From Ulota crispa (lineage: Eukaryota > Streptophyta > Bryopsida > Orthotrichales > Orthotrichaceae): a stretch of 64,000 bases of DNA. Numbering within the stretch: the first letter of the stretch is position 1; each line of letters opens with the position of its first letter. This document shows, in pieces, positions 58,272 through 64,000 of the stretch. The notes below the pieces were generated by a model. That model did not search any database, was not told the DNA's origin, and saw only the letters and a program-made list of their open reading frames with translations. The position numbers and the translations under genes were made by a program. The DNA lies in contig OY987251.1 in NCBI GenBank assembly GCA_963920765.1, positions 11,287,219-11,351,218 on the forward strand. Direction: 5' to 3'.

Positions 58272-59163
58272 CCCCTAAGTGTCCAAGGGTGTTTTTTTTA
58301 TTTTTGGAAGGTAGTTTTGAAATTCTTGGATTGTCCGTGTAAGATCATTATTTAATATCAAAACAAAATTGTAACTGTAGAATCTTGAACTTCAAGGCTT
58401 CTAAATGGTGCTACCCAAAAAAAAACCCAAAATGAACACACAATTTTTTTAGATATTTGTGATTGAATGATGATGAGTATAGATTTTTTTGTTTTTTTTC
58501 CAGCTGCTTGAACTTTTGATGCAAATTGGCAACTTTTGGATACAAAAATGGGAAACAACCACTTAGGATGCTTTAGTGTTTATTGTTGTTACTTGAAAAC
58601 TAATAGCCCCCCCCCCCTCCAAATCCATGACCGCAGTTTCACAAATAAGCTTGGAACACAATTGTGTAAGTGCACCTAATACAAAGACATTTTTTAGCTT
58701 CAATTATTGACCAAAAATCATTATGTATGAAAGAAAATTCAACGGTGAATGAATTCTACTTTCTATAACAAAGACATTCCAAGTGAAATGAGTCCAAAGG
58801 CACTTTTAGATTATGTTAGATGTCAAAATTTTAGTAAAAGGGCCCTTATTGCCAAGGGAAATCTTCACCTTTTTCTCAACTTGATGATTGTCTTTTCAAT
58901 GTGGCAACATGTCATAGGCTCTATGACACTATTTATGACTCTTTTCATGACACAAAATATATGCTTGCAGATAACCTTTCACCAAAAACAATTGGAATAA
59001 GATAAGGAGGTAGTTTAATTTGAACGGTGAAGCTAACTTTAACGCACCATTTTTCCAAAAAAATAACCTAAAAACAATCAAATTTGTGCCTTCAAGAGGG
59101 TTTCAAAGTTTTTCAACGTTTTTTGAACACCAAAATCTAATGCCTTGGGCATTTAGGGGTTAA
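58268..59163. mobile_element. TTAA-flanked element, 896 bp
   Basis: TTAACCCCTAAGTGTCCAAGG to the inverse of TTAACCCCTAAATGCCCAAGG. A 9-C run lies near 58610. No transposase-like frame. Confidence 0.75.
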
Positions 59164-59724
59164 CACTTCAAAGCATGTAGAGAGTCACACGATTTGCCCC
59201 ACACATGACTAAAGAACTTGCCTTGCCAAAGTTGATTTGCAACCGCTTGCATGACAAAACACATGACTCAAGTTCAACTTGCAATCGCTTGCGTGGCAAA
59301 ACACATAGCCCGTAAACCCCTTGTAGTACAAAATATAAACCTCTCATATTCCACAATATACACAACAAGTGTGAGGACCTTTTTCTTCATTCAGAATGAA
59401 ACTCTACAATTGAAAACTCAGCAACTTTCTTCCCTTTCTTCCCTCCAAGACACTCAACATTGCAAAAAATGACCTCATGCTTTCACAATATGCACACAAC
59501 AAACATCAACAGTAAGAACAACACAATTGAAATGCGAATTGAAAAAACCTGCAGTTGCAAGGACAGCAACTTCTCTTCCATTTTATAACTACAACGAAGA
59601 ATGTCATCAATGAAGATAATTCAGCCCTCCCTTCAAAGGCAACTCCCCAGAGGAGGTTTCAAATTTCAAATTTAGGGTTCAAGGTTTCTAAGGTTTGGGG
59701 TTTTACGGTTTTAGAGTTTTAGGG

Positions 59725-59793
59725 CTACAGAGTCCACCCTTTGTCGAGCAGGCCCACGATGAAGACCAGCGTGCTCTCAAGGTCGGAGATGAG
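59725..59793 (-). pseudogene. TraB terminal-exon copy D, 19-codon in-frame deletion
   Basis: After the acceptor-like GTTTATAG the frame reads LISDLESTLVFIVGLLDKGW, then TL and TAG. Relative to the gene it lacks the segment from AVLALDLWF to the NDY region by a deletion of 57 nt, leaving the frame intact. Confidence 0.75.
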
Positions 59794-60374
59794 CTATAAA
59801 CCTCATATTTCCCAATACAGTGGTGCCTGGATAAGATGAAGGTATCCGGACAGCATATTCATTTCATGTAAGGAAAGCATTCATTGTAACCAAACACATC
59901 TTTTGTAACTCCCCAATTGCCAAGGACAATCATCGCCTTCATCTTAGCTAAGCATTTTTTCTTATAAAGGTTCATCTTAAAGAGACACTATTGTACACAC
60001 AACAAGTACAAGGACCATTTTCCTCATTCAAAATGGAACTCTGGAGTTGCAAAGTCAACAACTTTCTTCCCTTCCTTCCAAGACAGTCCACACTGCAAAA
60101 GATTACCTCATACTTCACAATATGCACAACACATGCTTCACAATATGCAGAGCAGAAACAACAACAACAAGAATAGCACATTTGAAATATGAAATGAAAA
60201 ATCTGCAGTTGCAAGTTGCAAGGACAGCAACTTCTCCTCCTTTTATAGCTACAACAAAGAATGTCACTGAAGATAATTGAGTCTTCCCTTCAAAGGCTCT
60301 CCCCCACAAGGGGGTTTCAAATCTCAAATTTAGGGTTTGAGCTTTTTAGGGTTTAGAGTTTAGGGTTTTTACAA

Positions 60375-60500
60375 TTAAAGAGTCCAGCCTTTGTCGAGAA
60401 GGCCCACAATAAAAACCAGCGTACTCTCAAGGTAGTCGTTGCAAGCGCCGAGGAAGAGCTCCCAGAACCAAAGGTCCAGTGCCAGCACGGCAGAGATGAG
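60375..60500 (-). pseudogene. TraB terminal-exon copy C, protein identical to the gene
   Basis: 126 nt from CTC ATC TCT to TAA after the acceptor-like GGTTTTTAG. All 41 residues equal those of the authentic exon although several codons differ (for example GAT/GAC, TTG/CTG). Could be an alternative last exon, a recent conversion product, or the relic of a paralogue. Confidence 0.75.
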
Positions 60501-60872
60501 CTAAAAACCTCATATTTCACAATACACACAACCATTTTTTTCTTTCAAAACGGAACTCGACAATTGCAAATTTAAAATCTTTCTTTCCTTCCTTCCAAGA
60601 CACTCAACATGGCAAATAATAACCTCATGCTTCACAATATGCACACAAAAAAAACAAAAATAGTATGAGGAACACATTTGAAAATGTGAAATTCAAAAAC
60701 CTGGAGTTGCAAGGATAGCAACTTTTCCTTCCATTTTATAACTACAACTAAGAATGTCAATGAAGATAATTGAGCCTTCCCTTTGAAGGCAACTACCCCA
60801 CAGGGAGGTTTCAAATTTCAAATTTAGGATTTAAGGTATTTTTAGGGTTTTGGGTTTTGGGGGTTTCTACAG

Positions 60873-60998
60873 TTACAGAGTCCAGCCTTTGTCGAGCAGG
60901 CCCACAATAAACACCAGCGTGCTCACAAGATAATCATTGCAAGCCCCATGGAAGAGCTCCCAGAACCAAAGGTCCAGAGCCAGGACGGCAGAGATGAG
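60873..60998 (-). pseudogene. TraB terminal-exon copy B, two replacements
   Basis: 126 nt after the acceptor-like GGTCTGTAG. Open to TAA. Differs from the gene's protein only at L to H (in ELFHGACNDY) and E to V (DYLVSTLV), with additional synonymous changes. Confidence 0.75.
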
Positions 60999-61303
60999 CT
61001 ACAGACCTCATATTCCACAATATACACAACAAGTGCAAGACCATACTCAAACATTACAAAAAACCATCTCATGCTTCACAATATGCACAACAAAAACAAG
61101 AACAACAACAACATGAGGAGCCCACTTGAAATATGAATTGAAAAACCTGCAGTTGCAAGGACAGCAACTTTTCTTCCTTTTATAAATACAACGAAGAATG
61201 TCAATGAGCCTTCCCTTTGAAGGCACTTCCCCACATGGGGGTTTCAAATTTCAAATTTAGGGTTTCTAGGGTTTAAGGTTTTGGGGTTTTGGGAGTTGGA
61301 GGG

Positions 61304-64000
61304 TTACAGAGTCCACCCTTTATCGAGCAGGCCCACAATAAAAACCAGCGTGCTCTCGAGGTAATCGTTGCAAGCGCCGAGGAAGAGCTCCCAGAACCAA
61401 AGATCCAAAGCCAACACTGCGGAGATGAGCAGCAACGCCAGCGTCTGGTAGCGATTGAGCGCCCACCCGGACTTCTTCGCCAGGGAGCTCAGGAACACGG
61501 ACAGCTCCCCCGCGGCGTTGAGCTCACGCCCACGGATGGCCCACGCCGTGCGCCAGTTGATGCCCGTGGGGAACAGGTGGAACTCCTCCCGCAGCCTCCG
61601 GTCCATGTCCGGTAAGTGCCCGCTGCCGTAGAACACCGCCACCTTGGAACAGCCTTCCTTGAACGCCGCTCGCAGCTCCGCCATCGCCACTCGGTTGCGC
61701 TCGCCGATGATCACCGAGTTTTCCACCACCGCTGACGTGCTGTCTGCGAAACTGTAGCCAATTCATGCCAACTCAGGAATCAATCAATCAAAAAAATCCT
61801 TTGGTCTTTTGTGGTTTTGGTAATTTTGCAAAGCTAAGAGCATCTGCATCCTTGCACGCAAAGTCCAGGTGTCCAGGGTACATCCACAACCACAAGCTCA
61901 GGTCTCTAGGATGCATCCATAACCACAAGCTCAAGTGTCTAGGGTGCATCCACAGCCACATGCTCGCTTAAATCTCCAATGCCCCATCCACAACCACAAG
62001 CTCACTCAAATCTCCAATGCCCCACCCTTGTCCTCAAGCAGGTACAAGCGAGCACTAAGAGCGTATCACAGAGTATCACGGAGGACCGATGTTTGAGCTT
62101 CAATCATGAGCCTATTGTGTCAACAAATCAACAAGTGTCAATTGCCCTAGATTTGGTCGCGCTAATAATTCATCTCCCTACACGTTTCACTATTCTAGAT
62201 GCTTCTAAATACAATTGAGCGAGCGGCTTGCATACGGCGTTGACACAGCGCGACACGCGGAGCAGCCACACACCAAGTGCTATTCAGGGCCTGGTTTGCG
62301 TACAAGAGTACAGATGCTCTAAGTCCAGGTAGGAGAGCTCGATTGTCAAGAGCTTGATGGCGGTGCTTTAGGGTTAGAGAAATCTCGACGTGAGAGAAGA
62401 CAGGAAAACGGGAAACTGGTAGTGATTCTGAAGGAGAAGAATTCGTTAAGCAAGCGCTAGGGTTTCAAAAGAGACGTGTACTTTGTCGACGTGCTACTTG
62501 TGAAACTGTGAATCGGAGTTCTTGATGTTCTTTTTGTGACTTCTGTAATTTAACCAAATTCTGCAAAACTATCGACCAGGTAAGGATTCGTTTCGCTTGT
62601 TCAGAGCTGAATGGCGATGTTTTAGGGTTAGGGATATCTCGACGGGGAGAGAAGGGAGAAAAAACAAACTACGGTGCAAGACACCATAAACCAACAAACA
62701 TTTGGCCACAAAATGTCAAATGTCAAATACTGGTCAACTTTGGGTGCTATCAATGTCTTTCTCACAAATGATAGTTCCAATTTGTTTTTGTAACTTTTTT
62801 CCCAAGATCTCCATGTTACAAAGAGTTTCAACTTATTGAGGGGCTAGTAATTACAAGGGGTTTCAACTTATTGAGGGGAGTTACAGCATAAAACAACAAA
62901 GACCTAACAATCAATCAAATGAGCTATTCATAACACCCCTCAATAAGTTGAAATTCTTTGTAACTAAAAGCACAAGACATTGATAGCACCCCAAAGTCGA
63001 CCACTATTTGACATTTTGTGGCCAAATGTTGGTTAATGGTGTCTTGCACTAAGGTAGGAGGCTCTAATTCGGAGCAGGCTCTAAAATGGAGCACCTCCTC
63101 AAATGTACTCCATTTGTACATGTTGTTTTTCATAGCCCTTCAACAACGTACATGCAATGTACACTTGAGGAGGTGCTCCATTTTAGAGCCCTATGGCCTT
63201 TCCACTTCAAAATTTCATAACTAATTCCACTAAGTTCCAAAAAATATGAAATAACTTGCGTTGGATGCCAAGTCAAGAAAAATACACTGAAAAATATTTC
63301 AAGAAGTTTCACCTACCCAAATTCAGTTTCAGCCCCGAGATGCTCCATTTATGAGCCTCCTACCTTATAGTAGTGATCCCGGAGAAGAAGCAGAATTGGA
63401 TTAGGGTTTAAAAAAAGAGGGCGGTAAGTGAGGGTCGTACTCTGTGGTGATTTGCTTTGCGAGTAAGACTTTGAAGGCGCCGGGGATGTCCAACTCAAGC
63501 AGAGCCTTCATGGCGGGGGAAGCTTTCAGCGGCGCATCAGATGGAGCACAAACACCTTCGATCACCAACAACCCGAGCAACGGCATGGGCATCACCCGCG
63601 AGATCCACTGCAGCTTTTGCCGCCACGGGTCAAGCCCTGGCTTCGGTGCGAACGCCGCTTTCGTGATAGCCTTGCTTGACATCGCCGTCAAGTCCTTCGC
63701 AAACGAGAGAAACGATTCGCCACGTTCTCGCTGCAACAGAGAGACCAACTGTAAGACCTAAACCCTAAACAAGCTCCAAACCCTAAAATCTCCGCCTTTG
63801 GTGCGAAGATATTAAGGGCAGTCACACCTTCTTCACCCCGTCCTCACTTTTCAAAGAATGGGGTTGTGGCACACTCTCCTTGACTTTTGGGGACCCCATT
63901 CTTTAAAGATTGAGAATTTTTTCTCTTCATCATCTCCAAAGGTGAAGAATGAAGGTGAAGAATGGAGTGAAGAAATCTTTGCATGCAAACGGTTTACCTT
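61304..64000 (-). CDS. TraB-family membrane protein, 3' two exons, truncated by the window edge
   Basis: Visible exons: 63730-63441 and 61751-61304 (stop TAA). The join GA|T gives ITTDFADSTSAV in frame. 5' exons must lie beyond 64000; 63731-64000 holds intron and repeat only. The first exon reads RERGESFLSFAKDLTAM, KPGLDPWRQKLQWISRVMP, GVCAPSDAP. The second has VIIGERNRVAMAEL, KVAVFYGSGHLPDMDRRLRE and RTAWAIRGREL, then a hydrophobic tail ALNRYQTLALLLISAVLALD and LWFWELF. The GERN...YGxGHxPD arrangement and the tail are typical of eukaryotic TraB-domain proteins. Plant members have been placed at mitochondrial/ER contact sites, anchored by a C-terminal membrane segment. Enzymatic function is not established. 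The 1.7-kb intron is almost entirely MITEs. Confidence 0.85.
61838..62320. mobile_element. PIF/Harbinger-like MITE with TAA duplication, in TraB intron
   Basis: TAA + GAGCATCTGCATCC at the left, CAGATGCTC + TAA at the right. Inside, an ATCCACAACCACAAGCTCA phrase is repeated several times (61881-62000). Confidence 0.65.
62340..62660. repeat. Direct duplication in the TraB intron
   Basis: AGAGCTTGATGGCGGTGCTT plus TAGGGTTAGAGAAATCTCGACG at about 62350 recurs as CAGAGCTGAATGGCGATGTT plus TAGGGTTAGGGATATCTCGACG at about 62601, some 250 bp apart. Confidence 0.6.
62671..63049. mobile_element. Foldback MITE in the TraB intron
   Basis: GTGCAAGACACCATAAACC and ACATTTGGCCACAAAATGTC at the left are mirrored at the right to GGTGTCTTGCAC, with arms of about 90 bp. 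The CAACTTATTGAGGGG phrase is repeated inside in both orientations. It abuts the next MITE. Confidence 0.75.
63050..63367. mobile_element. MITE, TAAGGTAGGAGGCTC family, intact copy
   Basis: TAAGGTAGGAGGCTCTAATT to ATGAGCCTCCTACCTTA, 318 bp. Additional internal GGCTCTAAAATGGAGCACCT / AGGTGCTCCATTTTAGAGCC inverted pair. The interrupted relative is at 48768-49380. Confidence 0.8.
63817..63990. repeat. Dispersed repeat shared with 52034-52210
   Basis: See 52034-52210. The right part also contains GAAGAATGAAGGTGAAGAAT, mirrored by the CACCTTCTTCACCCC start, so it may be a MITE. It lies in the TraB intron upstream of exon 63730-63441. Confidence 0.55.

Follow-up and report, generated by a model that had tools for sequence, protein, structure and literature searches.

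In the moss Ulota crispa, the last 42 codons of a minus-strand gene, stop codon included, recur three times downstream of the gene's own stop, in frame and free of internal stops. The locus lies on contig OY987251.1 (assembly GCA_963920765.1), in a 64,000-nucleotide (nt) stretch covering positions 11,287,219 to 11,351,218 of the forward strand, hereafter called the window, whose numbering is used throughout. The gene, as judged from protein similarity, is a homologue of plant DWARF AND YELLOW 1 (DY1), a distant TraB relative. Its tail copies very likely carry the scar of a single partial tandem duplication, and their pattern of substitutions makes it likely that amino-acid constraint has acted on them during most of the time since they separated. 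Truncated gene copies are usually presumed dead; here, orphan tails with a ratio of replacing to synonymous substitution rates (dN/dS) near zero sit beside a readable birth scar. The most probable single mechanism for this constraint, although short of an even chance, would be the use of the copies as spliced terminal exons.

Four tandem units and one shared breakpoint

The first, sequence-only reading of this DNA had placed coding copies at 60998-60873, 60500-60375 and 59793-59725, and these positions, together with the frame and stops, are all correct. Its count of 42 codons holds as well, corresponding precisely to 41 residues plus the stop, and the three types it had distinguished (one with two replacements, one protein-identical, one with a 19-codon loss) are copies 2, 3 and 4, respectively. 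Copy 2 (60873..60998, minus strand; 41 codons and TAA) differs from the gene tail at 16 of 126 nt, including two replacements, Leu to His and Glu to Val. Copy 3 (60375..60500, minus strand; 41 codons and TAA) differs at 13 of 126 nt, every one synonymous, and encodes the same protein as the gene tail. Copy 4 (59725..59793, minus strand), which ends in TAG, is shortened by an in-frame loss of 57 nt (19 codons); its other 66 nt hold six synonymous differences and no replacement, the stop codon accounting for one of the six.

While the coding copies were thus recognized correctly, the repeat itself extends further, to four head-to-tail units of about 430-710 nt that include the 3' flank. All lie on the minus strand: unit 1 (61000..61430) is the gene's own tail with its 3' flank, unit 2 (60502..60999) contains copy 2, unit 3 (59795..60501) contains copy 3 and a flank with a transposon-like insertion, and unit 4 (59334..59794) contains copy 4. 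Immediately before the tail the gene reads ...GCGTTGCT, and the copies read GGTCTGTA, GGTTTTTA or GGTTTATA, joined at G|CTC. The flank of unit 4 is homologous to the others through GGTTTATA, up to TTTATA (59334), and thereafter continues as other sequence, TTTTGTAC; this end of the homology falls at the very point at which, in the other units, the next tail is attached. Both partners of the breakpoint can thus still be read, flank TTTATA having been joined to gene GCTCATC in one duplication in which TA and G gave TAG; the TAG before the copies is very likely the scar of this event. At copy 2 (60999..61001, minus strand) TA comes from the flank and G from the gene codon CTG; the equivalent TAGs lie at 60501-60503 and 59794-59796 on the same strand. 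The sequence-only reading had taken this TAG for an inherited splice acceptor. It is a breakpoint scar instead, and the copies start at the same codon because they share one breakpoint, not because of a splice site.

We therefore read the array, with its head-to-tail units and one common junction between the 3' flank and a point in the coding sequence, as a partial tandem duplication. The initial event joined the flank point (...GGTTTATA) to the last-exon point (G|CTC ATC), generating a second tail-plus-flank unit, and further duplication or unequal exchange would have led to four units with the same breakpoint and with TAG, fused from TA and G, immediately before each copied tail. As in the partial (3'-end) tandem duplication treated in the available text of PMC3449122, the copies are truncated parts of a gene, here arranged head-to-tail with one breakpoint; unlike a plain duplication of that kind, they keep a synonymous-only pattern despite lacking a start codon and a complete gene. 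A retrocopy or processed pseudogene is ruled out by the tandem layout, the co-copied flank and the finding of no other copy with copy 3 as query. In the 275-Mb assembly, the DNA of copy 3 matched only this locus (3 of 3 candidates), as did the exon 5 protein (3 of 6 candidates); both searches missed the short copy 4, so that very short pieces elsewhere could likewise escape.

Probable coding constraint on the copies

Across the six pairs of tails, differences at codon positions 1, 2 and 3 number 0-2, 0-2 and 6-12, respectively. The dN/dS is 0 in three pairs and 0.029, 0.043 and 0.061 in the three that involve copy 2. This almost exclusively synonymous divergence of the coding part suggests that amino-acid selection acted on the copies, and dN/dS, which the earlier reading had proposed to compare across all four, is far below 1 on the copies themselves. 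In a three-way comparison of the full-length tails, that is, excluding copy 4, synonymous and replacing unique changes amount to 8 and 0 in the gene, 5 and 0 in copy 3, and 6 and 2 in copy 2, while the synonymous share expected under neutrality is 25-32%. For copies 2 and 3 together, 11 synonymous versus 2 replacing changes correspond to a P of about 1e-5 to 1e-4, and two or fewer replacements arose in 0-0.5% of 4000 neutral simulation runs in each of nine settings. As the gene has accumulated eight unique synonymous changes, an equally old neutral copy should, on a clock argument, show many replacements. Noncoding pairs have 7-12 insertions or deletions each, mostly not multiples of three; among the tails, those of units 1-3 are free of such changes, and copy 4 shows the single 57-nt loss. 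Antisense coding was rejected as a cause of the wobble pattern: in the plus-strand frame whose third positions pair with those of the minus strand, there is one stop in the gene tail, one in copy 2 and two in copy 3, with none in copy 4.

We also fitted codons and flanks jointly, using 337 flank columns; flank columns 1-50, the stop codons and the hybrid codon of copy 4 were excluded. With the copies and the inner branch neutral, the log likelihood was -1227.6; it rose to -1216.1 in the best case with one copy's branch excused, and to -1202.6 with all rates free, which adds two to three parameters. The two remaining tree shapes gave gaps of 14.5 and 14.8 between the free-rate and the best excused case. 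Fully neutral copies were at least 18.7 log units worse whatever the ratio assumed between synonymous and flank rates (1 to 4); this ratio fits best at 2.5-3, with 1.5 being 2.3-2.8 log units worse and 4 about 1 worse. Approximate 95% upper bounds on dN/dS, taken from profiles at a rate ratio of 1.5, are about 0.12 for copy 3, 0.33 for copy 4 and 0.5 for copy 2.

At synonymous sites, the tails have diverged further than the flanks, with a synonymous divergence (dS) of 0.36-0.77 across the six pairs compared to 17-20% in the flanks. The third positions of exon 5 have a guanine-plus-cytosine (GC) content of 83%, and GC-rich third positions under mutation biased towards A and T may account for part of this excess.

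The gene and its exons

The host gene runs on the minus strand from 66129 to 61304, with five exons encoding 495 residues; its GT-AG introns were set by eye and frame. Exon 5 (61304..61751, minus strand), supported by splice sites, frame and homologues, ends with the original tail at 61304-61429 and is preceded by exon 4 (63441..63730, minus strand). Exons 3, 2 and 1 (64577-64862, 64999-65036 and 65704-66129, minus strand) lie beyond the window, in its numbering. The donors of exons 1 and 3 are in phase 0, those of exons 2 and 4 in phase 2.

Closest to the gene product among the matches listed are three unnamed proteins with 80-86% identity. Sphagnum proteins are 76-77% identical over 81% of the query, and a Hibiscus protein named DWARF AND YELLOW 1 is 50% identical over 80%. 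The Pfam family TraB/PrgY/gumN (PF01963) scores 13.4 bits (E 0.07) on the gene product, below its cut-off of 26.8; at an E of 0.1 or lower it matches 14 of the 24 homologues aligned. The earlier label 'TraB' for this gene thus holds as a distant relationship, the gene itself being a DY1 homologue. Arabidopsis DY1 (At5g19540) is described in the available text of PMC5742152 as a chloroplast protein of the stroma fraction on which pigments and thylakoid assembly depend, and plant genomes are said to contain one copy each. The moss gene resembles it along its length outside the N-terminus, and it too was found as a single complete gene in the 275-Mb assembly, which was searched with the protein of exons 3-4 and of exon 5, exons 1-2 not being used. 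In contrast to the moss locus, tail arrays are not mentioned for DY1 in those parts of PMC5742152.

Possible splicing into the junction

Independent translation of the copies is ruled out by the in-frame TAG directly upstream of each and the lack of an in-frame ATG inside, leaving splicing into the chance-made junction AG as the only ordinary route by which they could be translated. This AG stands directly before the coding segment, as part of TAG, in three of three copies, which the junction scar accounts for. The 20 bases before it contain 8-10 T and 40-50% pyrimidine, against a local T background of 33%; the corresponding values for the gene's own acceptors are 30% T and 45% pyrimidine at exon 5, and 40% T and 65% pyrimidine at exon 4. 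The context, previously called T-rich, is indeed comparable to these acceptors, but it carries little information, as a nearly identical stretch ends unit 4 without a copy behind it.

The idea that the copies are alternative last exons that simply swap what the first reading took for a membrane tail has no route: in the gene model, GT is not present at the point where the copies begin (LL|LIS), and the phase-2 donor of exon 4 would lead into a different frame, as the copies require phase 0. Within exon 5, 10 of the 27 GT sites are in phase 0, the best of which (61642) fits 4 of 7 consensus bases. From these phases, only weak cryptic donors or splices that skip further, starting at exon 1 or exon 3, would keep the frame. 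An in-phase donor at exon 3, at exon 1 or at a cryptic phase-0 site in exon 5 would generate short isoforms instead of an exchanged tail; for the path from exon 3 to a copy, a protein of about 250 plus 41 residues is predicted.

As a different source of reading, a promoter and micro-exon in each flank leading to the next tail was considered and rejected; by eye, there is no conserved ATG, and unit 3 has no donor and carries the insertion there.

Weighing the explanations

On balance, we tentatively favor a duplication scar followed by constraint on the copies as spliced terminal exons, now or until recently, a reading from sequence to which we give somewhat less than an even chance. Each copy would then form an alternative 3' terminal exon that brings its own 3' end. 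The resemblance of the AG context to the gene's exon 5 acceptor and the phase-0 donors of exons 1 and 3 are consistent with this. Several points weigh against it. The sequence before the junction is nearly identical at the end of unit 4, where no exon follows, so that its upkeep is no sign of use, and a competing GAG ends 8 nt ahead of each junction AG. No in-phase donor was found adjoining the tail, and the path from exon 3 would lose exons 4 and 5, which carry conserved motifs. A protein of about 291 residues is not among the 120 homologues listed, of 320 (7996 candidates scored), and the 41-residue tail as a protein query yielded no candidate; with the closest listed homologue 86% identical, the source species itself seems absent from the protein set searched. 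Three redundant exons for nearly one protein should see relaxed selection, and copy 2, the nearest to the gene, is the least constrained, with an upper bound on dN/dS near 0.5. The sample comprises only 126 nt per copy. Flank columns 31-180 are less variable than columns 181-390 (25/124 versus 37/98, P 0.004, the split being chosen post hoc), but this contrast weakens to P 0.047 once the first 30 columns, the most variable, are included. Finally, in a codon-only fit, whose branch lengths are independent of the flanks, a model in which the copies are serial snapshots of the gene, rooted on copy 3, lies only 3 log units behind the two-rate model (-256.8 versus -253.8). That a chance duplication has actually produced four terminal coding exons, with a scar-made acceptor as the way into three and protein-level selection on all, as a new alternative-last-exon system, appears rather doubtful to us.

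It is unlikely, if still conceivable, that the copies are neutral debris of the partial tandem duplication and that the synonymous pattern reflects chance or a small-number artefact. The anatomy of junction and units requires nothing beyond the duplication, no path for reading the copies is known, the replacements in copy 2 are radical, and copy 4 has undergone a large deletion. The copies are also short, and freedom from stops is unremarkable by itself, being seen in 39-68% of neutral simulated sets; the view of the sequence-only reading that the copies do not look like simple neutral debris is supported by dN/dS. A neutral origin is difficult to reconcile with the 11 to 2 excess of synonymous unique changes in copies 2 and 3, and with the joint fit, where neutral models trail by 13 log-likelihood units or more, whichever single copy has its branch excused. 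Serial snapshots of the gene, or conversion from it, which could mimic constraint, were rejected on the clock argument given above, and the snapshot model has a deficit of at least 13 log units in the joint fit. Snapshots or re-copying by conversion should also bring replacements in step with the gene's synonymous changes, yet copy 3 has no replacement. The narrow gap in the codon-only fit rests on near-zero neutral time on copy 4 beside a long gene branch, which breaks the clock. Moreover, only one tail per chromosome can serve the gene at a time, yet all four branches appear constrained, and simple recombination histories thus probably do not rescue neutrality.

A recombination process of another kind would involve tail cassettes: exchange between haplotypes, or programmed rearrangement, would place copies into the tail position of the gene, where selection tests each lineage. 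The homology within the array allows unequal exchange, and the arrays of truncated exons joined by DNA rearrangement at Tetrahymena mating-type loci, as reported in the available part of PMC3608545, offer a precedent. Exchange frequent enough for selection should, however, homogenize the copies, whereas the flanks differ by 17-20% and dS reaches 0.36-0.77, and the flanks favor no tree shape; we regard such cassettes as very improbable. We know of no such programmed DNA rearrangement in mosses. Constraint on the tails would equally be explained if the units were relics of complete tandem genes, functional until recently, that have lost their 5' parts. The two replacements in copy 2 are compatible with a short recent neutral phase, and the less variable proximal flanks weakly agree. 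This history would require that three losses all ended on one base, where the homology of unit 4 ends as well; no remnant of exon 3, exon 4 or the first part of exon 5 was found genome-wide (exons 1 and 2 were not searched genome-wide), nor of any exon in the window and the 9.8 kb upstream in a local search, and DY1 is given as one copy per plant genome in the available text of PMC5742152. Accordingly, complete-gene relics seem improbable to us, if less so than cassettes. The faintest prospect is an ancestral intron at LL|LIS with alternative last exons, recently lost from the gene. It would explain the common start codon, the TAG and the constraint together, but the duplication breakpoint would have to coincide within 1-2 nt with the acceptor, since the flank homology of unit 4 ends at the junction. 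A Sphagnum-like protein reads through the site unbroken and runs through exons 3-5; it derives from one 3.3-kb contig, which may be a transcript. The unit 4 boundary and this protein disfavor the intron-bearing ancestor that the first reading had considered.

Parallels to known systems

One parallel is offered by the Tetrahymena mating-type loci, where, in the available text of PMC3608545, truncated membrane-terminal exons form tandem arrays whose differences, with one exception, break no frame, much as in the moss. The Tetrahymena pieces are joined by DNA rearrangement, while the moss host is a plant, for which no such rearrangement is known. Among plants, the available text of PMC4974935 reports intron gain through tandem duplication in potato, showing that new splice sites can arise in a plant gene in this way. 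In potato a donor and a new intron were detected; in the moss only an AG arises, no adjacent donor was seen, and the duplicated piece is the end of a gene with its 3' flank. No tandem array of constrained plant gene tails was found among the matches listed in the open-licence literature. Given the spliced-exon reading on the one hand and recombination on the other, the locus allows a direct test of whether a random duplication junction was adopted as a splice site under selection or whether recombination imitates selection.

Other features of the locus

The insertion in unit 3 (59816..59995, minus strand), just upstream of copy 4, is a short non-autonomous transposon-like element with imperfect inverted ends, its body (59818-59993) lying between two TA. 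It recurs at 90-96% identity in at least 39 other genomic places, 40 of 596 candidates having been scored; the remainder of the unit 3 flank matched only this locus among these 40, which does not imply uniqueness. An Rfam scan of 59000-61800 gave no match up to E 1. The 3' flanks of units 1, 2 and 4 contain a hairpin, AGTTGC-loop-GCAACT, at 61151-61169, 60705-60723 and 59553-59571, which was flagged by a promoter and terminator scan of bacterial type that is not meaningful for a plant. Upstream of the hairpin, the flanks share a conserved TATAAAA-like stretch that, by eye, may be a polyadenylation signal.

Repeats also occur in the introns of the host gene. In intron 3, a stretch of about 300 nt is tandemly repeated (63760-64061 and 64074-64366, the second extending beyond the window) with 81% identity, indicating that local duplication struck this gene more than once. 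Intron 4 contains two inverted-repeat pairs within 62843-62971 and 63077-63190 (41 nt at 83% and 32 nt at 97%), perhaps remnants of small transposons, and, at 61861-62022, tandem repeats of 33 nt in three copies and of 38 nt in two.

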